This document shows positions 1,980 to 63,979 of a stretch of DNA of 64,000 nt, in pieces (positions within the stretch are counted from its first letter, which is position 1; each line of letters starts with the position of its first letter). The translations under genes and the position numbers were made by a program. Source of the DNA: Tridacna crocea (Eukaryota > Mollusca > Bivalvia > Cardiida > Cardiidae); contig OX031072.1 of assembly GCA_943736015.1 (NCBI GenBank), positions 10,001 through 74,000 of the forward strand, written 5' to 3'. Under the pieces are notes generated by a model, which did not search any database, had not been told where the DNA came from, and saw only the letters and a program-made list of their open reading frames with translations.

Positions 1980-3880
1980 AGTCTTAATATGATTTTTTAT
2001 GTTCATCAGGAACAACTGCCATTCACAGTATTTCATTTACCTGTGCGTCCCGCATCAGGGACGCAAAGAAATTACCGAGGACGCGAAACTTTTAGATATG
2101 TGCATTTTCGAGACGCACTGATTTTGATATCAATGCCTTTTGCAAAATTTTGTTTGATCCCAATCAATTAAAGTGTTTAAATTTTCTATCGAAACACCGG
2201 TAGGCCCAACTTTTTTACTCTAGACTGGTATCTTCATTTTCCGGTCTATTTTTAGCGTAAGTAATGTTAGTCTATAAATGGTTTCCGGTTTTCTTTCTAT
2301 TCGGGTGCACAGAAGATCGACATCCAGCATGGACGTTATAGATCCTGTCCGAGGCATAGCCTACTCTTTCTTTCTTAATTGCAGAAAATTGTAGTCAATA
2401 TATCACTGCATTCACGGTATTTATGATTAGATACAGTTTTAGAAATCTTGGTTTCCAGTATTATGAATTGTCCTTTTCCCTGAATAGTTTTAAAGTTGAT
2501 CTTAATTGGCATTTCAAGTCGTCTTTGTACTTAACAGGCCAGTTCATTTCATGACTTGTGTAGTCAAATTTTAACAATTAAGCTACAGCTGTAAATTATT
2601 CAAATTATAACTGCCATTATACTGCCACCTTGTGAAGTCAAAAACTACCAAGTTCATTCAGATGGTGACTTAAGTTTTTATAGATGTCGATAAATAGGTA
2701 GAACTATCACAGTAATTTCATTTTAAATATCACAAATGATTAGCACAAATTAGAAATTTTGTGTATAAATATGATCTGATCAGTGTGAAATTTTCTTGAT
2801 ACCAAAGTTTGTCATAATTTGTTTTTTCAGAAAACTTTTCACCATCCAAATAAATATTCTAGGAAATGTAGGATCAGCCTCCAAAGAGTTTTGAGTTGTC
2901 TTGGATAGCTTAGTGCTGAAAGTGTTGAGTCAATAATCTTAAGTTCCTGTGTTAGATCCTTAGCCAAGATACATGTAATGTTTTACTTGTATGGCAGTTT
3001 CTATGGGTAAGGAAAGCAACATCCCAATCATGGACTGCTTTTAATACAAAGGAAAATAATTTATGAAAAGAGCTGTCGGCTTGATACAACTGAAATGATT
3101 TCGAAATAGGAGCACAACAGCAACTGATCAGTCCAAAAAAGTCCCAGTTTCAAAAAGGATTAGGCCAAAAGAGGCTGGTTGAATATAATGGACCTGATCA
3201 TTATCTGACATTGAATTCATATCCATGTAGTTATTTTTATTTCTCAATTAAAGTTATGAACAACAATGGTACATTCATGGATAAAGGGACAGAGTTCTAA
3301 GAAAGATTAAGAATTTTCAGAGATTTAGATTTGTAGATCTGAAACTTTGTAATTACTTGTTTAAATGGACTTTTATGTTACTTTCCATTGCAATTCAGCA
3401 TAATGTAATGTCATTAACATCTTTACTTGGTAATATTTCAACAAGTGCTGGCCTATGGCTGAGGCATGCCTTGCTCAAGGATACTCCTACATATTAACTG
3501 GCAGGGCAATCAGGGTTTTAAACAGGATTTCAAGAGAACAAACCCTTTGCCTTGACCTAGAAATAAATTTCATTTACCTAGAAAAAACAACCCTGTATAT
3601 ATTTTAGTGCCTTCCAAGTCTTTGCCGTTACCTTGCCATAAAATTACTCATAAGTCTTAACATCAGACAGCTGACGGTTTTGCCTTAATGAAATGAACTG
3701 AAATTTGTTAGAAGCAGATGAATACAGGGCTGAGAAAAGAAAACATCATATCAGATTTTGTTTTGGAAAGTCAAAAATAAGAAAATTGATTTTCTAAATA
3801 CTTGTACATTTCAACATGCCCGATATATAGTCCACCATATTATCATTTTTTTATGAATTGGATGATTAGGAATGGTTCAG
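1980..3880. other. No supported gene
   Basis: This is AT-rich sequence without a convincing exon, RNA or repeat boundary. Short GACGC-containing strings recur at 2046-2120. They resemble strings at 6400-6475, but no unit can be defined. Confidence 0.5.
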
Positions 3881-3884
3881 TCAA

Positions 3885-4113
3885 TTAACCCTTTCCCAAA
3901 CAACAAAATTTTAGACTGGTCCAAAGTAAAAGCACTTACAGACGACAATATTAATGTTATTCAAAAAGCAAAATTTGTTTCCAGCAGAAAAGAAAACATT
4001 GTGGGAAAAGGAGAAAATGGTGGTTACCAGCATTTTCTCCTTTTCCCACAATGTTTTCTAAAGGCTTCTTTCTCAGGGGCGTCAAAAGTAGGGATTGTGT
4101 GTTAATGGGTTAA
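3885..4113 (-). mobile_element. Family A MITE, complete
   Basis: TTAA at both ends. The left terminus CCCTTTCCCAAACAACAAAA is followed by the GACTGGTCC and CAGACGACAA arm, a palindrome at 3992-4059 with one central mismatch, then GGGGCGTCAAAAGTAGGGATTG and GTTAATGGG. The two termini do not match each other as well as in most copies. Confidence 0.9.
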
Positions 4114-7442: not shown

Positions 7443-7671
7443 TAAGCCCTTTCCCAAACAATCCCTGGTTTTAACGGGTTAGGAATAGAAGCCATTTTAA
7501 AACATTGTGGGAAAAGGAGAAAATGCTGGTCACCAGCATTTTCTCCTTTTCCCACAATGTTTTCTACCCTATCATAAAAATGAATCATCTTTTTAGCAAC
7601 TGTTAATTTGTCACCTGCAAATTGCTTTCAATTTGGTCTGGTCCAATACTTGCCGTTTGGGAAAGGGTTAA
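7443..7671 (+). mobile_element. Family A MITE, CCCTTTCCC/GGGAAAGGG subfamily
   Basis: CCCTTTCCCAAACAATCCCTGG, a perfect palindrome centred on GGTCACC (7506-7564), TACCCTATCAT, TCACCTGCAAATT, then TTTGGGAAAGGGTTAA. The left target base pairs read TAAG rather than TTAA and overlap the putative splice donor at 7442. Confidence 0.9.
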
Positions 7672-13075: not shown

Positions 13076-13303
13076 TTAACCCATTACCACACAATCCCTA
13101 CTTTTGACGCCTCTGAGAAAGAAGCCTTTCGAAAACACTGTGGGAAAAGGAGAAAATGCTGGTAACAACATTTTCTCCTTTTCCCACAGTGTTTTCTACC
13201 CTTCCCAGAACAAATTTCCATTTTTCAGTCACCTTTATTTTGTTGTCTGCAAATGCTTTCAATTTGGACCAGTCTAAAATTTTGTCGTGTCGTAATGGGT
13301 TAA
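13076..13303 (+). mobile_element. Family A MITE, CCCATTACC/GGTAATGGG subfamily
   Basis: Both TTAA sites are intact. CCCATTACCACACAATCCCT opens; GGTAATGGG is mirrored as CGTAATGGG. The hairpin uses CACTGTGGG stems and has lost three central bases. CCCTTCCCAGAACAAATTTC and TGTCTGCAAATGCTTTCAAT are clean. Confidence 0.95.
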
Positions 13304-19062: not shown

Positions 19063-19290
19063 TTAACTCTTTACCACACAAGAAAATTTGGACTGGTCTA
19101 AATTGAAAGCATTTGCAGACAACAAAATAAAGGTGACTGAATAACTGAAATTTGTACTGGGAAGGATAGAAAACACTGTGGGAAAAGGAGAAAATTCTGG
19201 TTACCAGCATTTTCTCCTTTTCCCACAGTGTTTTCAAAAGGCTTCTTTCTCAGGGGCGTCAAAAGTAGGGATTGTGTGGTAATGGGTTAA
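19063..19290 (-). mobile_element. Family A MITE, complete
   Basis: TTAACTCTTTACCACACAAG to GTGTGGTAATGGGTTAA. The hairpin has CACTGTGGG stems with one core mismatch. Very close to the copies at 48967 and 63751. Confidence 0.95.
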
Positions 19291-19784: not shown

Positions 19785-21080
19785 TGTCTGTCATCCGTCA
19801 TGCGTCATCAACAATTCTTTAAACATCAACTCCTCCAAAACTGCTGGGCCAATATGGACCAAACTTGGCTGGAATGTTCCTTGGGAGGTCCTCTTTGAAA
19901 ATTGTTCACAGAATTTGATTACGTCAAAAGTTTTGGTTGCCATGGCAACCAAACAGTTTTCTAAGAAATTCTTTAAAAATCTTCTCTGAAACAGCTGGCC
20001 AGATTTTAAAATAATTTCACAGAGTTGTTCCTTAACGTAGTGGACCCGTAATAGAACACAGCTATTTCCACTATAATATTACCCTAGAAAATCTGCTAAG
20101 ATTAAAATTGAGCACTATTGTACTACTTTCACCGAGCCACTTTTTCTTTTTTATCCTTCCTAGAATTATCATTTATAAATCTATAACTACTATAATTTCA
20201 TTACAAATGGATATGATAATTACCTCCCTTTTCTGGAAACTAACAAAATTATCAACAAATAATTTCAAGACGGACCCCGAAGGAATTTCTGTTCGGTCAA
20301 AAATGTGCAACAGTATCATATCTGTACAAAATATGTCTTATCAACTGTCCAGAAATTTTATGCCATGCTGCACTATGCTTATTACGGGTCCACTACCTTA
20401 AGTGACCCTTTCCAAAACTTTTTCGTGAAATTTTGATCAGTCAAGAAACATGACTCTGGTGAATGGGGGCTATTTGCACTATACAGGAATGAAGAAATTC
20501 TAAAAAATTCTTCTTCTCTGAAACCACTGGTCAGATTTTGAAATAATTTCTCAGGGATGTTCTATGGGTGACCCTTTTCAAAAATTGTTTGCGAAATTTC
20601 AATCCATCAAGAAACATGGCTCTGGTGAATGGGGGCTACTTGTACTTATATGGACATGCAGAAATTCTTGAATATTCTTACTTCTCTGAAACGGCTGATC
20701 AGATATTGAAAAAAGTTCACAGAGATGTTCCTTGGGTGACCCTTTTAAAAACTTGTTCGCGAAATTTTGATTTGCCAAGAAACATGGCTCAGGGGAATTG
20801 GGGCTACAATATGGAAATGAAGAATTTCTTGAAAATTCACCTTCTCTGAAACCCATGATCAGATTTTAAAATAATTTCAAAGCAATCTTCCTTGGATGAC
20901 CATTTTCAAAAATGTTTTCGAAATTCTGATCCATCAAGAAGCATGGCTCTGGTAAATGGGGTCCACTTGCACTATTCGGACATGAAGAAATTCTTGAAAA
21001 TTCTTCTTCACTGAAATGGTTGGTCAGATTTTGAAATGATTTCACAGAGATGTCCCTTATGTGTCCCTTTTCAAAAATTG
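19785..21080 (+). repeat. Tandem array, ~165-bp unit, five copies
   Basis: Units start near CTCTGAAACNNCTGGTCAG at about 19985, 20516, 20685, 20843 and 21008. They share TTCACAGAGATGTTCCTTGG, AAACATGGCTCTGGTGAATG and GAAGAAATTCTTGAAAATTC. A leader with GTCATCCGTCATGCGTCATC, TTCTTTAAACATCAACTCC and GGTTGCCATGGCAACC precedes them. The same leader type opens the array at 41.36 kb. Frames read through by chance; no protein is proposed. Confidence 0.85.
20036..20397. mobile_element. Family D TTAA element inside the tandem array
   Basis: TTAA at 20032-20035 and 20398-20401 flank ends GTAGTGGACCCGTAATA / TATTACGGGTCCACTAC, a 17-bp perfect inverted repeat. Neighbouring units read GTTCCTTGGGTGACCC where this one reads GTTCCTTAA[362 bp]TTAAGTGACCC, so the array gives the empty site. 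TTAA targeting fits piggyBac or Kolobok. The interior has no transposase. Confidence 0.85.
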
Positions 21081-21084
21081 TCAG

Positions 21085-24115: not shown

Positions 24116-24344
24116 TTAACCCTTTCCCGAACCATCCCTGTTTTTTACGGGTCTGGAATAGTAGCCTTTTGAAAACATTGTGGGAAAAGAAGAAAATGCT
24201 GGTAATCAGCATTTTCTCCTTTTCCCACAATGTTTTCTACCCTATCATATAAAGAAATAATCTTTTCAGCAAGAGTTTAATTGTCGTCTGCAAATACTTT
24301 CAATTTGATCAAGTCCAAAAAATTCTCGTTTGGGAAAGGGTTAA
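24116..24344 (+). mobile_element. Family A MITE, complete
   Basis: TTAACCCTTTCCCGAACCAT, TTACGGGTCTGGAATAGTAG, palindrome centred on GGTAATC, GTCGTCTGCAAATACTTTCA, TTTGGGAAAGGGTTAA. CCCTTTCCC/GGGAAAGGG subfamily. Confidence 0.95.
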
Positions 24345-26323: not shown

Positions 26324-26642
26324 GCAGAGGCTCAGTAGCTCAGTCTTTAGAGTGCAGGACTTGACAACATGGGGCCCAGGGTTCCATGCTTGACTATGAA
26401 GCCTGGTTTGGCCAATTTCTTCCCGAGGACTGATGATAGTCACTGCAATAGCCGACAGGATTCATTCCTCTCCCACCGCTGACCACCGACAATGGTTATG
26501 TGGGAAAGCATCCAGGGGCTTGGAAAGAAAATCATGTGAAGTACTGGTAAAAGAGACTTCAGGAACGCATTGATAGGGCACTGGCTGTTATATAACTGAA
26601 ATAATGTTGAAAACGGTGTTATAACACCATACAATTAATTGG
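26324..26642 (+). repeat. SINE inserted in a family A MITE
   Basis: ACCTGTCTA occurs at 26315-26323 and 26643-26651, the target duplication. The SINE has an A box (AGTAGCTCAGTCTTTAGAGT), a B-box-like CCCAGGGTTCCATGC and the shared body. The tail is ATAACTGAAATAATGTTG, then GGTGTTATAACACCATAC. Confidence 0.9.
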
Positions 26643-26675
26643 ACCTGTCTAAAATTATTTGGCAAAGAGGTTTAT
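26643..26675 (+). mobile_element. Family A MITE, remainder after SINE
   Basis: GACCTGTCTAAAATTATTTGGCAAAGAGG continues the arm broken at 26323. Confidence 0.85.
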
Positions 26676-26938
26676 GAGGCCTTTTTGAAATGGGGAAAAT
26701 ACTTAAAAACTTTGTGGTAAAAAGGGAAAAAGCTAGCTAAAAGCTTTTTCTTTGCTGCATATTTAGAAATTTTTGTGACATGGAAAAGCAATAATTCGCA
26801 GTTTTTTTGACTCGCTGATACTTATACAGTATTTCCCACAATATTTTCAATCCTTCCTGACACAAAGTTCAATTTTGATTTCTGCAGTTTTTTTCAAGTG
26901 GGAAAAGTCTCAAATTTTGTCCTCTGGTAAAGAGTTAA
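26676..26938 (+). mobile_element. Family A MITE, degraded with insert
   Basis: GAGGCCTTTTTGAAATGG, AAAGCTAGCTAAAAGCTTTT as an altered hairpin, ~60 unrelated bases, TTCCCACAATATTTTCAATCC, TTCTGCAGTTTTTTTCAAGT, GGTAAAGAGTTAA. Confidence 0.6.
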
Positions 26939-26944
26939 GAGAGA

Positions 26945-27240
26945 ATTTTTATGCAATTATTATTTAGTATATACTGAAAGGGTCATATTATATAATGGTC
27001 CAGGTCGTCCATTCATTTGCAATGTCTTGTGTGCGCAACTCCTCCTACTTTCCATTGAAATAAGTTCAAACTTACCACAATATACCTCTGTGATGTGTAG
27101 TTGTGCATGTGACTAAAAATTTGGATCTCTTTAGTCATGGTTGGTTGGTTTTATCCCATTTTACAAACAAGCCCCTTCTGGTGTATATGAACCCCTCTGC
27201 AAAGCTCTTGTTTAGTTTTTAGTCTTTATTAGTTAGACCT
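26945..27240. other. No supported feature
   Basis: Mixed sequence with no repeat boundary or exon that I can defend. Confidence 0.4.
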
Positions 27241-27256
27241 AATTTCTATTTTTCAG

Positions 27257-27387
27257 TACCTTTTGTAAGTTCTGCCCGGATGAAATGGTACACAGACACC
27301 AAGTTAAGCTGAAAGAGCCAAGATCAAAGGTTAGATAAGAAATGAACTACTTCAGAGGTGACCTCGGACAACAATTTTTGACATGAA
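27257..27387 (+). other. Exon-like module, copy 3
   Basis: TTCTATTTTTCAG|TACCTTTTGTAAGTTCTGCC opens and TTTTTGACATGAA|GTAAGA closes it: the best-preserved splice signals of the four. One frame gives 26 codons starting TFCKFCPDEMVHRHQVKLK before a stop. The C-x2-C spacing is suggestive but not enough for a zinc-binding call. Downstream CCTACAGGGCCATATAGATG matches the block after copy 2. Confidence 0.5.
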
Positions 27388-27782
27388 GTAAGATAGCATC
27401 TGACTTTAATATAATTCATGTTAAAAACTGTTTAACTTCAAATTTGCTGAAACCCACATAAGTTGTTTTGCAGACCATACGAATTATGATCAAACAGCTC
27501 GAACTCTCTCAAATCCTACAGGGCCATATAGATGAACAACAAGCACATTTTTTGCCTGTGTGCCCTACCTTTGCAAATATAAATTCCAGTACATACCTTT
27601 TCCAAATGGTGTAGACAGAAAGGCTAGATTATTTAGATATCGAAGTTAAAATCCAAAAAATCATTAGAACAGTTACAGAAAATAACCCTTTCCTTATAAT
27701 ATTGTTTAAAGTTAGTTAATGAATTAATGAAATAGGTCCGCTCACAATGTTCTAATACTTGGAAAGTTTACTTTGATACATT

Positions 27783-27830
27783 TAAAGGGCAAATCAACAA
27801 GTTTCTGATATGATTAATTTTCAAATCTAC
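27783..27830 (+). mobile_element. Kolobok-like terminus, single end
   Basis: TTTAAAGGGCAAATCAACAAG matches the first 15 bases of the ends at 29941 and 31326. I cannot find its partner. AATAAGTTTCTGATGATGAGG at 28107 faintly echoes the next bases. Confidence 0.4.
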
Positions 27831-27899
27831 ATCTATCAAATGGCAACCTGGTAATGTTGTAATTTGAAAAAAAAATTAGTAAAAGTACTTTCTTTCAAT

Positions 27900-28734: not shown

Positions 28735-28982
28735 TTAACTCTTTACCATACGACAAAGTATTAAACAGGTCCAAACTGAAATCTCTTGCAGACAACAAAA
28801 TAAAGTTATATATTTCAAAAATTGAATTTTTTTTTTCCAGCAGAGTAAAACACTATTAAAAGGAGAATATGCTGGTTACTAGGTAACTTTCTACTAGGTG
28901 GCTGGTTACTTTCTTACAATGTTTTTAAAAGTCTTCCATCTTCGGGGTTGTAAAAATTAGGGATTGATTGGTAAAGGGTTAA
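28735..28982 (-). mobile_element. Family A MITE, hairpin rearranged
   Basis: TTAACTCTTTACCATACGAC, TTGCAGACAACAAAATAAAG, then a hairpin in which GCTGGTTACTAGGTAACTTTCTACTAGGTGGCTGGTTAC replaces the simple core. TTGGTAAAGGGTTAA closes. A CCACAATATTTTCTA scrap of another copy precedes it. Confidence 0.8.
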
Positions 28983-29095
28983 ATATAAATCCCAAACATT
29001 GGGCACGAGTTCTGGTTAAGTTCACAGGGAGCAGTATCCAAAGAGATAAGTAGGAGTTGTATGGACTTCTTCTCAAGAGATGTAAAATACATTTT

Positions 29096-29324
29096 TTCAC
29101 CCTTTCCTAAACAATCCCTGGTTTTTACGGGAAAGGAATGGAAGCCTTTTGGAAACATTGTGGGAAAAGGAGAAAATGCTGGTAACCAGCATATTCGCCT
29201 CTTCCCACAATGCTTTCTACCCTATCATATAGAATAATCATCTTTTAAGCAACTGTTAATTTGTCATCGGCTAAATGCTTTGAATTTGGTCTGGTCCAAA
29301 ATTTGCCATCTGGGAAAGGGTTAA
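29096..29324 (+). mobile_element. Family A MITE, complete
   Basis: TTCACCCTTTCCTAAACAATCCC, TTACGGGAAAGGAATGGAAG, hairpin, ATCATATAGAATAATCATCT, GGGAAAGGGTTAA. It differs from the copy at 57121 by only about 15 substitutions and small changes by eye. Confidence 0.95.
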
Positions 29325-29536
29325 ATTGTTACCAAACATCAAATTTATTGACTCAACCGAATTGAAAGCAATTAGAGTCAAGAAATCAAATTTAACTTGC
29401 ATGTTTGGACTTGTTTCTGATGGGGTAAAAAACTTTGTAGAAAAAGGAGAAAATGCTGGTCAGCAGCATTTCTCTTTTACCTACAATGTTTTCGAAAGTT
29501 TTTTTCTATCATCACAAGGGTCCGTAAAAACAAAAG
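29321..29536 (-). mobile_element. Family A MITE, shares TTAA with previous copy
   Basis: TTAAATTGTTACCAAACATC, ATTGACTCAACCGAATTGAA, hairpin centred on GGTCAGC, then GGGTCCGTAAAAACAAAAGA. Right terminus lost. Confidence 0.8.
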
Positions 29537-29539
29537 ATT

Positions 29540-29850
29540 TTTCTCAGTAGCCTGTCTAGAAGACATAATATGGAGAGGAACAGAGAAATATCCACAAATC
29601 AGAAGTGTAAAGATACAATTCAAAATATGTTCAAAATGACTGTAAGTTGTCAAATCATTTTTAAGAGTGAAATGTCGAAGAGAAGAAGTGTATGGGATAA
29701 AAGCTGTAACATGGGTTTACTGTCACAAACAAACATTACAGTGTAAAGGGGTGAGATATGCAAATGTTATGTAACCATTTCCTGTATTATTTCAACTGGC
29801 CGGTGATGGATTAACATTTATGACCATGACTAGGGGTAGCCAGATACTGA
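29540..29850. other. No supported feature
   Basis: Unassigned AT-rich DNA. No ends, exons or RNA structures noticed. Confidence 0.4.
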
Positions 29851-29851
29851 C

Positions 29852-30083
29852 TTCACCCTTTACCATACAAACCTAGTTTCCAATACCCAAAGAAAGAGTG
29901 TTTGAAAAACAGTGTGGGAAGAAAAAGATGTTTACCTGTTTAAAGGGCAAATCCTAAAATATTTTGACCATACTGTTTTTTGCTCCAATCAGCTGCAAAT
30001 GTTTTTGGTTCACAATTCTTTTGTTGTCTACAAATGCTTTTAATTTGAACCAGTCTAAAATTTTTGTGTTTGGTAAATGGTCA
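29852..30083 (+). mobile_element. Family A MITE interrupted by a Kolobok-like end
   Basis: CACCCTTTACCATACAAACC, AGAGTGTTTGAAAAACAGTG and a broken hairpin run to 29938. A 66-base foreign segment follows; then TTGTTGTCTACAAATGCTTT, AACCAGTCTAAAATT and TTTGGTAAATGGT complete the right arm. Confidence 0.75.
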
Positions 30084-30165
30084 GTTGACCATCTGTTTTT
30101 TACAACCCTGAGATAGAAGCCTTTTGAAAACATTGTGGAAAAGGAAGAAAAAGCTGAAACACTTG
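30083..30165 (+). mobile_element. Family A MITE, left half
   Basis: GACCATCTGTTTTTTACAACCCTGAGATAGAAGCCTTTTGAAAACATTGTGGAAAAGG, then lost. Confidence 0.7.
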
Positions 30166-30245
30166 AAAGTTAACATCATTTGAACAATCCAGACTTTGGT
30201 TCTTGCAAAATCTATGTTATGAATTTGAATGAACACGACATGTTG

Positions 30246-30377
30246 TTGCCTTTGAAAACATTGTGAGGAAAAGAGAAAATGTTAAGATTTTCTCCTTTTC
30301 CCATAATGTTTTCCATCCTTTCCAAATCAAATTTCATTTCAATTTTTTGATTACCATTTTTTTGTCATGTGAAAATT
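30246..30377 (+). mobile_element. Family A MITE, hairpin and part of right arm
   Basis: GCCTTTGAAAACATTGTGAGG, short hairpin with AATGTTAAGATTTTC centre, CCATCCTTTCCAAATCAAAT. It ends at the TTAA that opens the next copy. Confidence 0.7.
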
Positions 30378-30604
30378 AACCCTTTACCAAACAATCCCTG
30401 GTTTTTACAACCCTGAGATGGAAGCCTTTTTAAAACATTGTGGGAAAAGGAAAATATGCTGGAAACCAACATTTTCTTCTTATCCTACAATGTTTTCTAT
30501 CCTGGTGGAAACAAATTTCAATTTTTCAGTTAGGTTTACTTTGTTCCCTGCAAGTGCTTTTAAATTGGACCAGTCTAAAATTTTGTCTCTTGGTAAAGGG
30601 TTAA
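30376..30604 (+). mobile_element. Family A MITE, complete
   Basis: TTAACCCTTTACCAAACAATCCCTGG, CAACCCTGAGATGGAAGCC, hairpin centred on GGAAACC, TTCCCTGCAAGTGCTTTTAA, CTTGGTAAAGGGTTAA. CCCTTTACC/GGTAAAGGG subfamily. Confidence 0.95.
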
Positions 30605-30672
30605 ATGTTGAAAACATTTGGGGAAAAAAAGGAGAAAACGGCACCAATTTCTCCTTTGTCCAGAATGTAGAT
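30605..30672 (+). mobile_element. Family A MITE, hairpin scrap
   Basis: GTTGAAAACATTTGGGGAAA, AAGGAGAAAACGGCACCAAT, TCTCCTTTGTCCAGAATGT. Confidence 0.55.
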
Positions 30673-41355: not shown

Positions 41356-42795
41356 AGGTGAGCTGTGGTTATTGCCCTATGTCCGGAGCATGTTGTCCGT
41401 CGTCTGTCAACAATTCCTTTAAACATCTTCTTTTCCTAAACCACTGGGCCAATCTGCATGAAACTTGGCAGGAATATTCCTTGGGTGAAGCTCTACCAAA
41501 ATTGTTCAAAAAATTTAATTCCATCCATAACTCTGGTTGCCATGGCAAAAAAAAAAAAAAAAACCCATAATCTTTGAAAATCTTCTTCTCTAAAACTAGA
41601 AGGCGAAGAGTTTTGATATTTGGTATGTGGCATCTCCTAATGGACCTCTACCAAGTTTGTTCAAATTATGCCCCTAGAGCCAAAACTGGCCCCACCTCGG
41701 GGTATAATAAGTTTGAGCATAGGAACAAAGAAGGAAAACATTAAACTTCTACTCTGAAATTTGAAGGTGTACAGCTTTGATATTTGGTATGTGGCATCTC
41801 CTAGTGGACCTCTACCAAATTTGTTCAAATTATACCCCTGGGGTCAAAAGTGGCCCCACACGGGGGTCACAATTTTGAGCATAGGAACAAAGAAAGAAAA
41901 CTTTAAAATTGTTTTCCTCAGAAACTAGAAAGCGTAGAGCTTTGATAATTGGTCTGTTTCATCTCCTAGTGGACCTCTACCTATTTTCTTCAAATGATGC
42001 CCCTGGGGTCAAAACTGCTCCCCCCCACCACCACGAGTCACTAGTTTGAGCATAGGAACAAAGAAGGAAAACTTTAAAATTCTTTTCCTCTGAAACTAGA
42101 TGGCGTAGAGCAAATTCTTCTTCTCTAAAATTAGAAGACATAGAACTATGATATTTTGTATGTAGCAATTCCTGGTGGACCGCTACCAAGTTTGTGCGTA
42201 TTATGCCCTTGGGGTCGAAACTGGCCCTGTCCTGGGGGGTCACAGGTTCAAACATAGCAACAAAGAAGGAAAACTTTAAAATCTTCTCCTCTGGAACTTG
42301 AAGGTGCAGAGCTTTGATATTTGGTATGCAGAATATTCTACTGGACCTCTACCAAGTTTGGTCATATGATGTCCCTGGTGTCGAAACTGGCCCTGCGTAG
42401 GAGGAACATAGGAACAAGGAAAATTTTAAATTTCTTTTTCTCTGAAACAGGAAGGTGTAGAGCTTTGATATTTGGTATGTAGCATCTTTGAGCGGACCTC
42501 TACCAAGTTTGTTCCAAGGATGCTGCTGTGGTCAAAACTGGCCCAGCCCCGGGGACCACAAATTCGAACATACGACAAAGAAGGAAGATTTAAAATTCTT
42601 CTTTGAAACTGGATGGTGTAGAGCTTTGATATTTGATTGCCCAATGTCCGGCGTCTGTTGTCCATCGTCCGTCAATAATTTCTTTAAACATCTAACCCAC
42701 TGGGCCAATCTTGATGAAACTTGGCAGGGATGTTCCTTTGGTGAAGCTTTACTGAAGTTGTTCAAAGAATTGAATTTCAATCGTAAGCTATAGTC
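41356..42795 (+). repeat. Tandem array, ~165-bp unit, about eight copies
   Basis: Unit starts (CTCTGAAACTAGAAGGCGTAG-like) lie near 41588, 41752, 41918, 42089 (short), 42123, 42289, 42440 and 42601. Shared blocks: AGAGCTTTGATATTTGGTAT, GTGGACCTCTACCAAGTTTG, GCATAGGAACAAAGAAGGAA. The array is bracketed by two leaders (41362-41530, 42636-42790) containing CACTGGGCCAAT and GAAACTTGGCAGGAATGTTCC. The first leader also matches the one at 19.79 kb, so the two arrays belong to one superfamily. Poly-A at 41548-41565. Confidence 0.9.
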
Positions 42796-43587: not shown

Positions 43588-43816
43588 TTAACCCTTTACC
43601 ACACAACACCAACTTTTAATGACCCTGAGAAAGAAGCCTCTTGAAAACATAGTTGGAAAAGGAGAAAATGCTGGTAACCAGCATTTTCTCCTTTTCCCAC
43701 AATGTTTTCTTCTCTTTCAAAGAAAAATAATTTCATATGAACCACACTGAAACTGCCATCAGCAAATGCTTTCAATTCAGACAGGTCTAAAATCTTGACA
43801 TGTGGTAAAGGGTTAA
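43588..43816 (+). mobile_element. Family A MITE, complete
   Basis: TTAACCCTTTACCACACAAC, CCTGAGAAAGAAGCCTCTTG, perfect core around GGTAACC, CATCAGCAAATGCTTTCAAT, TGTGGTAAAGGGTTAA. Confidence 0.95.
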
Positions 43817-46620: not shown

Positions 46621-46879
46621 TTAACCCATTACCAAACAACAATATTTGAGACTAGTCCATATTGAAAGCATTTGCAGACGACAAAAAGAAAAGTGACTGA
46701 AAATTCGAAATTTGTTTTGTGAAGGGTAGAAAACATTGTGGGAAAAGGAGAAAATGCTGGTTATTTTCTCCTTTTCCCACAATGTTTTCTAACCAGCATT
46801 TTCTCCTTTTCCCACAATGTTTTCTAAAGGCTTCTTTCTCATGGGTGTCAAAAGTAGGGATTGTGTGGTAATGGGTTAA
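46621..46879 (-). mobile_element. Family A MITE with duplicated hairpin arm, inside family C
   Basis: TTAACCCATTACCAAACAAC to GTGTGGTAATGGGTTAA. The right hairpin arm (ATTTTCTCCTTTTCCCACAA) is present twice in tandem (46764-46790 and 46797-46826), giving one left stem with two possible partners. Family C sequence on both sides shows the insertion site was its TTAA. Confidence 0.95.
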
Positions 46880-48008: not shown

Positions 48009-48252
48009 TTAACCCTTTCCCAAACAATCCCTGGTTTTTATGGGTCTGGAATAGTAGCCTTTTGAAAATATTGTGGGAAAAGGAGAAAATACTGGTAACA
48101 AAATACTGGTAACCCAGCATTTTCTCCTTTTCCCACAATGTTTTCTACCCTATCATAGACAGAAATCATCTTTTCACCAAGTGTTGAATTCTTGTCTGCA
48201 AATGCTTTGAATTTGGTCTACTCCAAAAGTTTATTGTTTGGTAAAGGGTTAA
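48009..48252 (+). mobile_element. Family A MITE, complete, core slipped
   Basis: TTAACCCTTTCCCAAACAATCCCTGG, GGTCTGGAATAGTAGCC, then AAATACTGGTAACAAAATACTGGTAACCCAGC (duplicated core), TTGTCTGCAAATGCTTTGAA, GGTAAAGGGTTAA. Left CCCTTTCCC but right GGTAAAGGG, a mixed pair of ends. Confidence 0.95.
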
Positions 48253-48966: not shown

Positions 48967-49195
48967 TTAACTCATTACCACACGAGAAAATTTTGGACTG
49001 GTCCACACTGAAAGCTTTTGCAGATGATAAAATAAAGGTGACTGAAAAATTGAAATTTGTTCTGGGAAGGGTAGAAAACACTGTGGGAAAAGGAGAAAAT
49101 GCTGGTTACCAGCATTTTCTCCTTTTCCCATAGTATTTTCAAAAGGCTTCTTTCTCAGGGGCGTCAAAAGTAGGGATTGTGTGGTAATGGGTTAA
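48967..49195 (-). mobile_element. Family A MITE, complete
   Basis: TTAACTCATTACCACACGAG to GTGTGGTAATGGGTTAA with CACTGTGGG stem. One right-stem base differs (CATAGTATTTTC). Starts one base after family C homology ends. Confidence 0.95.
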
Positions 49196-53798: not shown

Positions 53799-54027
53799 TT
53801 AACCCATTACCAAACGACAAAATTTTAGGTTTGTCCAAATTGAAAACATTTGCAGACGACAAAATAAAAGTGAATGAAAATTTGAAATTTGTTTTGTGAA
53901 GGGTAGAAAACATTGTGGGAAAAGAAGAAAATGCTGGTTACCAGCATATTCCCCTTTTCCCACAATGTTTTCTAAAGGCTTCTTTTTCAGGGGTGTCAAA
54001 AGTAGGGATTGTGTGGTAATGGGTTAA
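53799..54027 (-). mobile_element. Family A MITE, complete
   Basis: TTAACCCATTACCAAACGAC to GTGTGGTAATGGGTTAA, hairpin centred on GGTTACC. A young-looking insertion in the tandem array. Confidence 0.95.
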
Positions 54028-57120: not shown

Positions 57121-57349
57121 TTAACCCTTTCCCAAACAATCCCTGGTTTTTACGGGAAAGGAATAGAAGCCTTTTGGACACATTGTGGGAAAAGGAGAAA
57201 ATGCTGGTAACCAGCATTTTCTCCTTTTCCCACAATGTTTTCTACTCTATCATATAGAAAAATCATCTTTTAAGCAACTGTTAATTTGTCATCGGCAAAA
57301 TGCTTTGAATTTGGTCTGGTCCAAAATTTGCCGTTTGGGAAAGGGTTAA
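57121..57349 (+). mobile_element. Family A MITE, best reference copy
   Basis: TTAA; CCCTTTCCCAAACAATCCC; TGGTTTTTACGGGAAAGGAA; GAAGCCTTTTGGACAC; a perfect palindrome 57182-57235 (stem GTGGGAAAAGGAGAAAATGC, centre TGGTAACCA, no unpaired loop); TTCTACTCTATCATATAG; GTCATCGGCAAAATGCTTTG; TTTGGTCTGGTCC; GGGAAAGGG; TTAA. The ends are mirror images for 15 bases. There is no coding capacity. Mobilisation would need a piggyBac-type transposase in trans. Hairpin RNA from this copy would resemble a miRNA precursor in length. Confidence 0.95.
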
Positions 57350-63750: not shown

Positions 63751-63979
63751 TTAACTCATTACCACACGAGAACATTTTAGACTGGTCCAAATTGAAAGCA
63801 TTTGCAGACAACAAAATAAATGTGACTCAAAATTAAAAATTTGTTCTGGTAAGGGTAGAAAACACTGTGGGAAAAGGAGAAAATGCTGGTTACCAGCATT
63901 TTCTCCTTTTCCCACAGTGTTTTCAAAAGGCTTCTTTCTCAGGGGCGTCAAAAGTAGGGGTTGTGTGGAAATGGGTTAA
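63751..63979 (-). mobile_element. Family A MITE, complete, very clean
   Basis: TTAACTCATTACCACACGAG to GTGTGGAAATGGGTTAA; perfect palindrome with CACTGTGGG stems and GGTTACC centre (63855-63925). GGGGCGTCAAAAGTAGGGGTTG arm. Near-identical to 48967-49195. Confidence 0.95.

Follow-up and report, generated by a model that had tools for sequence, protein, structure and literature searches.

Why would a short, gene-less transposable element carry a long and almost perfect palindrome in its middle rather than at its ends? The question is raised by positions 57121-57349 of a 64,000-nucleotide stretch of the Tridacna crocea genome (the window; C17:10001-74000 of an assembly of 1.049 Gb in 31 contigs, of which C1 to C18 each measure at least 40 Mb). 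The element is short, contains no gene and occurs in very high copy number, as do MITEs of the Tourist and Stowaway type. In those elements, however, palindromy stems from the terminal repeats, whereas here it resides in the core, between unrelated arms. It is an open question what drives MITEs to such numbers, and their internal sequences are usually treated as filler. In the reading developed here, to which we assign a probability of about 0.5, a piggyBac-type MITE superfamily dominates the genome and its central 67-bp palindrome would be a DNA-level cis-acting module for transposition.

Structure of the element

The copy under study consists of the following parts.

57121..57349, + strand: entire MITE copy with its two flanking TTAA, 229 bp (sequence)
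57121..57124: left TTAA target-site copy (sequence; a single-TTAA empty site is known for another family copy, L053 845-1069)
57125..57137, + strand: left terminal inverted repeat CCCTTTCCCAAAC, 13 bp (sequence)
57138..57175, + strand: left arm, about 38 bp, unrelated to the right arm (sequence, alignment)
57176..57208, + strand: left half of the central palindrome, 33 bases, the inner 29 perfectly paired (palindrome scan, alignment)
57209..57209: centre base of the palindrome, unpaired and variable (palindrome scan, alignment)
57210..57242, + strand: right half of the central palindrome (palindrome scan, alignment)
57243..57332, + strand: right arm, about 90 bp (sequence, alignment)
57333..57345, + strand: right terminal inverted repeat GTTTGGGAAAGGG, 13 bp (sequence)
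57346..57349: right TTAA target-site copy (sequence; L053 empty site)

An earlier, sequence-only reading of this locus had described a near-perfect palindrome between two unrelated arms, and both points are borne out. The family form of the palindrome measures 67 bp, with two 33-base arms round one variable base; in this copy it occupies 57176-57242 with 31 of 33 pairs (by reading) and contains perfect 29-base arms (57180-57208 and 57210-57238, around 57209). Its centre is GGT-N-ACC, where N is A in 143, T in 27, G in 9, C in 5 and a gap in 7 of 191 aligned copies. The two arms of the element are unrelated except for the terminal repeats, as can be seen directly. Folding of the element as single-stranded DNA scores 10 SD better than 200 shuffled versions (z -10.2). 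A motif in the stem that resembles the terminal repeat (CCTTTTCCCACAAT against CCTTTACCACACAAT) was matched by 37 of 2000 shuffles and hence given no weight.

Copy number and distribution

A profile was built on the copies in the window, and non-overlapping matches at E <= 1e-4 were counted. The window holds 82 matches, 39 of them near full length, which cover 23.0% of its bases; the 60-70 copies proposed earlier for these 64 kb captured the abundance and slightly undercounted it. A random sample totalling 80 kb, taken at one place on each of 14 contigs (four pieces of 10 kb and ten of 4 kb, a subset of 80 random draws), gave 90 matches, 41 near full length, and a coverage of 19.9% of bases (bootstrap 12.6-26.7%), while one dinucleotide-shuffled version of a 360-kb sample gave none at the same cut-off. 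The exact inner 35-bp palindrome, AAGGAGAAAATGCTGGT-N-ACCAGCATTTTCTCCTT, is present at 173,858 places genome-wide (total count) and its reversed control at none; its 13 occurrences in the 80-kb random sample are consistent with the genome total. The family thus seems to make up about one fifth of the 1.05-Gb genome. Extrapolation from 1.1 matches per kb in this small sample would give about a million related copies. The 57121-57349 copy itself has 39 further scored copies elsewhere in the genome at 98-99% identity, among the matches scored. The sequence examined outside the window amounts to about 300 kb of 1049 Mb, in which the loci near MITEs and the piggyBac loci are not random samples. An inner stretch of the core (38 places) was not found in viral contigs.

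Representative copies in the window are the following.

3885..4113, - strand: full-length copy with a CCCATT-type left end (window matches, profile)
7447..7671, + strand: copy with palindrome arms perfect over 32 bases (palindrome scan, profile)
13076..13303, + strand: full-length copy with a compensated ACACTGT/ACAGTGT variant (palindrome scan, profile)
19063..19290, - strand: full-length copy with a compensated ACACTGT/ACAGTGT variant (palindrome scan, profile)
24116..24344, + strand: full-length copy of a sister subfamily with the GGGTCTGG left arm (window matches, profile)
28735..30604: section of a larger dispersed unit with at least 4 of these MITEs inside (flanks common to L009, L010, L014, L015, L023, L024, L025 and L030, various)
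43588..43816, + strand: full-length copy with a well-kept core, named in the sequence-only reading (window matches, palindrome scan)
46621..46879, - strand: copy with an internal duplication within the palindrome (window matches, profile)
48009..48252, + strand: copy whose palindrome centre contains a 14-bp tandem duplication (repeat scan, profile)
48967..49195, - strand: full-length copy (window matches, palindrome scan)
53799..54027, - strand: full-length copy, also named earlier (window matches, palindrome scan)
63751..63979, - strand: full-length copy with perfect 33-base arms and a compensated variant, also named earlier (window matches, palindrome scan)

The section of the dispersed unit can also be delimited as 28736-30668. 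The MITEs inside it are located at 28736-28981, 29098-29323, 29854-30081 and 30377-30603; three have imperfect palindromes, and copies of the unit with the same flanks are found on several chromosomes. One scan of the window detected 29 near-perfect palindromes, 27 of which were assigned by eye to this core or its variants. Outside MITE matches, 18 long palindromes were found in 144 kb scanned (for example, in the window region around 43297 and at L061 9189, L063 2692, 8139 and 9607, and L071 2390), which suggests further palindromic repeat families in the genome. The window also contains two tandem arrays, at 20402-21081 (168-bp units) and 41572-42111 (164-bp units). None of the six reading frames tested against Pfam, from 20 listed in the window, gave a match. 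On C1, the first exact inner core appears only at 272,651 (none in 1-272650), and copies are densely packed in the window, which begins just 10 kb into C17; the distribution of the family near chromosome ends may be uneven.

Relationship to piggyBac elements

The element is a piggyBac-superfamily MITE. At 229 bp the unit is too short to encode a transposase. One copy (L053, 845-1069) interrupts a piggyBac element, and eight sister copies of this piggyBac element have a single TTAA at the same place; a ninth sister (L045) differs at the empty site. A second filled site, at L055, is less clean, as its sisters read TTTA, one base off TTAA. The ends have the form CCC...GGG: terminal repeats start with CCCT in the window copy and in five of eight subfamily consensuses, with CCCATT in two and with CTCTTT in one. 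Ends of the CCCTTT type are common to resident transposase-bearing piggyBac elements (CCCTTTATATAC, CCCTTTCAGCGC, CCCATTTATGCC and others), and the CCCATT start also occurs in the resident element L033 and in coral AmiPB4. Kolobok elements, as described in PMC9587614, likewise have a TTAA target-site duplication, but their termini are given there as 5'-RR...YY-3', a pattern that CCC...GGG does not follow. The assignment to piggyBac is therefore based on the clean TTAA empty site together with ends that are like those of resident piggyBac elements and unlike those of Kolobok.

A matching autonomous partner would be marked by ends reading CCCTTT[A/C]CC or CCCATTACC. Among 30 loci read with 1.5-kb flanks, out of 118 transposase matches, no element was found that combines the ends of this family with a transposase; paired ends were obtained at 13 of these loci and none at the other 17. 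The sole pairing with family-like ends (L039, 246-3713) was rejected, as it joins two separate MITE copies and is not an autonomous element.

Conservation of core and arms

The sequence-only reading had held that the core is better kept than the arms in many old copies. From 192 near full-length copies (L001 was dropped as a duplicate of the window), 191 were aligned, one of over 300 bases being left out. Because many copies sit within larger duplicated units, not all are separate insertions. The 191 copies were reduced to 149 flank groups by dropping 42 shared-flank duplicates, and some duplicates may remain, as a further 99 copy pairs with only one common flank were kept separate. In these 149 insertions, mean column identity is 0.918 in the core, 0.854 in the ends, 0.769 in the left arm and 0.766 in the right arm; the core differs significantly from the arms (p 2e-16) and not from the ends (p 0.09).

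The pairwise divergence of the copies locates this difference. Among the closest pairs (204 pairs of 36 copies, most of which probably belong to the young query subfamily) the core/arm divergence is 1.23 (95% 0.63-2.39). In three more distant pair classes it is 0.46, 0.43 and 0.44, with all upper limits at or below 0.60. The earlier claim is thus right about the level of identity (0.918 against 0.77), but the core is conserved chiefly between lineages, about twice as much as the arms, and no clear protection in place is seen. Within subfamilies, singleton changes are rarer in the core than in the arms (ratios 0.62, 0.63 and 0.74; p 0.002, 0.00003 and 0.002), which may reflect source evolution in unsampled copies, weak protection or low mutability. 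When singletons are set against shared changes in an MK-like test, the loosest of the three clusterings gives a significant difference (p 0.001) and the other two do not (p 0.40 and 0.17). Parsimony counts were also made on trees that kept the duplicates (191 copies), and were set aside because sparse sampling mixes source evolution with decay on terminal branches; their core/arm ratios for terminal and internal branches were 0.69 and 0.40 with the arm tree, 0.62 and 0.44 with the full tree and 0.30 and 0.48 with the core-only tree.

Paired changes in the stem

Across the 33 stem pairs of the 149 copies, 508 changes are single; of the double changes, 87 are compensated and 31 are not. The compensated doubles are spread over 19 of the 33 pairs, and only 20.1 would be expected from column frequencies. 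Cells with both bases changed amount to 3.08 times the expectation for true partners, to 1.44-1.93 times when the partners are shifted by one to four places, and to no more than 2.21 times in any of 200 random pairings of opposite arms. A genome-wide test covered two of the 33 pairs (12 and 13), with the product of single counts over 173,858 as expectation. Pair 13 showed 2376 and 2336 singles and 193 doubles against 31.9 expected (6.0-fold); pair 12 showed 3686 and 3748 singles and 432 doubles of any letters against 79.5 expected (5.4-fold). In the non-partner control (position 13 with 12), 157 doubles compared with 100.7 expected (1.6-fold), so that the partner excess over the control is 3.5-3.9-fold at the two pairs tested. 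Pair 12 had no compensated changes in the 149 copies. Some double changes recur and mark entire subfamilies, such as C-G at pair 26 in 23 copies and T-A at pair 13 and C-G at pair 20 in five copies each.

Compensated changes can also arise without selection, by template switching (PMC8794818). If template switching at the hairpin copied one arm onto the other, the palindrome could stay perfect without any function, and the low core divergence would result from this process together with exchange between copies. According to PMC8794818, template switching both creates and maintains hairpin stems. The genome-wide doubles at pair 13 include G-C, T-A and C-G types; letters were obtained for 38 of the 193 places, and 30 of these 38 are complementary. 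The core duplications in the copies at 46621-46879 and 48009-48252 resemble template-switch scars. Doubles of any kind, however, make up only a few percent of singles: 4-6% at the two pairs followed genome-wide (193 against 4712 and 432 against 7434) and one compensated double against 55 single changes within the tightest subfamilies. Looser clusterings gave 15 against 119 and 22 against 205, and in the loosest a single pair-26 split provides most of the doubles (18 of 24, counted before shared-flank duplicates were removed). Upkeep by gene conversion, as suggested earlier, is not borne out by these proportions, since arm-to-arm conversion would be occasional at most. Copying between arms would moreover keep symmetry and not letters, and predicts neither the halved divergence between lineages nor the same core letters next to a different right arm (see below). 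We therefore consider it rather unlikely that such copying on its own explains the palindrome, and favor a cis-acting module for transposition, for which template switching may have been the mutational source of the double changes.

Subfamilies and retention of the core

Eight subfamilies comprise at least three separate insertions each (84 of the 149 copies), and all eight consensus palindromes are paired at 32-33 of 33 positions. The other 65 copies fall outside any subfamily of three or more, and lineages with a broken palindrome may be missed among them. Four groups with broken palindromes (20/33, 13/33, 21/33 and 28/33 pairs) were examined as possible spreading lineages and rejected. Because their members share flanks, that is, were copied inside larger units, they represent passive duplicates; in the 28/33 group the sharing is limited to the members with the broken form, and the other groups share flanks in whole.

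Subfamily 68 has kept the TTAA, the CCCTTTAC ends and the core. Its core shows an identity of 0.85 to the main consensus and carries compensated differences, while its right arm resembles that of the main family only at shuffle level (0.51 against 0.50) and its left arm is barely above it (0.60 against a shuffle maximum of 0.59). A genome search yielded 3234 first-look candidates, of which the best-scoring 40 (query included) are full length at 94-100% identity. Forty matching reverse-strand rows over the core, at 93-99%, indicate that the palindrome is present in these 40 best-scoring copies, a choice that favors intact palindromes.

Related sequence also accompanies a transposase. Locus L060 contains a 473-aa piggyBac transposase frame (PF13843, E 1.3e-71), and inverted repeats flank the transposase gene (836-1014 with 3093-3267, 82%; 1097-1146 with 3015-3061, 86%). 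One repeat includes a diverged but full core palindrome at 985-1049 (core profile 27.6 bits, E 7.1e-7; best shuffled score 15.0 bits), and the other only half of it. The L060 repeat gave 143 first-look candidates; 40 of them were scored, and no fewer than 18 of these map to the initial 50 kb of C1, C2, C3 or C8. The repeat may be part of that piggyBac family, or may have been inserted there twice.

These data also bear on the possibility that the first element merely happened to hold a palindrome that all copies inherited, an inert founder accident. The closest copies, which show no core/arm difference, would agree with it. It predicts, however, equal divergence of stem and arms between lineages, where a ratio of about 0.44 is observed, and an uncompensated drift of founders, in place of which all eight sampled subfamilies have a paired consensus. 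Such an accident is improbable, and retention of the palindrome by the spreading lineages is better accommodated by a role in transposition.

DNA or RNA level

The sequence-only reading had also considered that the hairpin is read as RNA. Selection on a transcript of one strand would predict G.T mismatches in excess of A.C, yet in the stems of the 149 copies the two are at the same level (145 and 147), and there is no strand-specific wobble tolerance; a bias would be hidden by transcripts from both strands. Shared changes at the three clusterings are likewise balanced (G.T against A.C: 1 and 3, 5 and 6, 12 and 12), and Rfam gave no match in the window at gathering scores. The mismatch counts and the Rfam result are the reason for placing the palindrome at the DNA level. 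MITEs have been reported as small-RNA precursors, and the stem is long and very stable, as seen from the folding of the DNA. That a transcript hairpin feeds small-RNA pathways or is edited, with selection keeping the RNA stem, is nevertheless highly improbable given the balanced mismatches and the lack of Rfam matches in the window, and selection through silencing would be expected to work against the MITE and not for it.

A putative cis-acting module for transposition

The sequence-only reading had offered a need for the core in movement as one explanation, and the compensated changes and the retention of the core with different arms fit this suggestion. We infer that a transposase makes use of the palindrome. 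Most likely, paired transposase domains (or a host factor) would use it as a symmetric docking site. By analogy, the nearest published mechanism is the binding of short palindromes by piggyBac transposases through the paired CRDs (cysteine-rich domains) of the dimer (PMC11707139). The piggyBac and piggyBat elements described there share TTAA targeting and palindromes with the present element. Their palindromes, however, are short and close to the ends, in elements that bear genes, whereas here a single long one is found in the middle of a gene-less element. The known CRD palindromes measure 12-19 bp (PMC11707139), far below 67 bp, which weakens this explanation. As the changes affect a large part of the stem and come in coupled pairs, pairing appears to matter beyond a short binding site, which led to the idea of a hinge: extrusion of a hairpin or cruciform could possibly help to bring the ends of the 229-bp element together. 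Spreading lineages would keep the palindrome, and an inserted copy would then decay largely unprotected.

A more far-reaching version is conceivable, though doubtful. The palindrome could be a portable cis-acting cassette, common to subfamilies with different arms and to a transposase-bearing piggyBac element, that acts through pairing, in that a cruciform hinge lets the ends synapse; selection among spreading copies would be fed by template-switch doubles, and the cassette could rank among the commonest long palindromes of any animal genome.

Comparison with known elements

The coral CMITE (Wang et al., 2010; PMC2872659) is the nearest known element; it has TTAA sites and CCCTTT-type ends that are tied to piggyBac, as here. 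Its internal region is described as more conserved between families than its ends, which resembles, by description, the core studied here, and the authors also propose a role of the internal region in transposition. A core common to families with different flanks is likewise found in Tridacna crocea, in subfamily 68. The CMITE is about 100 bp long with a 75-base internal region and an estimated 1600 copies or so in A. millepora (PMC2872659), in contrast to 229 bp, a 67-bp palindrome, paired changes and over 170,000 exact inner cores here, and neither "palindrome" nor "hairpin" is used as a word in the main text of that paper. Internal sequence can affect the mobility of Stowaway elements as well (cited in PMC11707139 and PMC2872659). 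In the open-access literature covered by the search, no MITE with a central palindrome was found.

A non-coding module kept by eight of eight sampled subfamilies, in a family that seems to occupy about one fifth of a genome, allows a direct test of whether internal structure, beyond the ends, sets the success of transposition. The more than 170,000 exact inner cores provide material for separating selection from mutation, and constitute a very large natural sample for the study of template-switch mutation in palindromes, a class of sequence whose instability is often assumed to prevent its persistence.

As a separate observation on the assembly, contig C31 looks mitochondrial: it carries COI at 26516-27850 with three in-frame TGA codons, a feature of animal mitochondria, and from the position of COI exceeds 27.8 kb, which is large for an animal.
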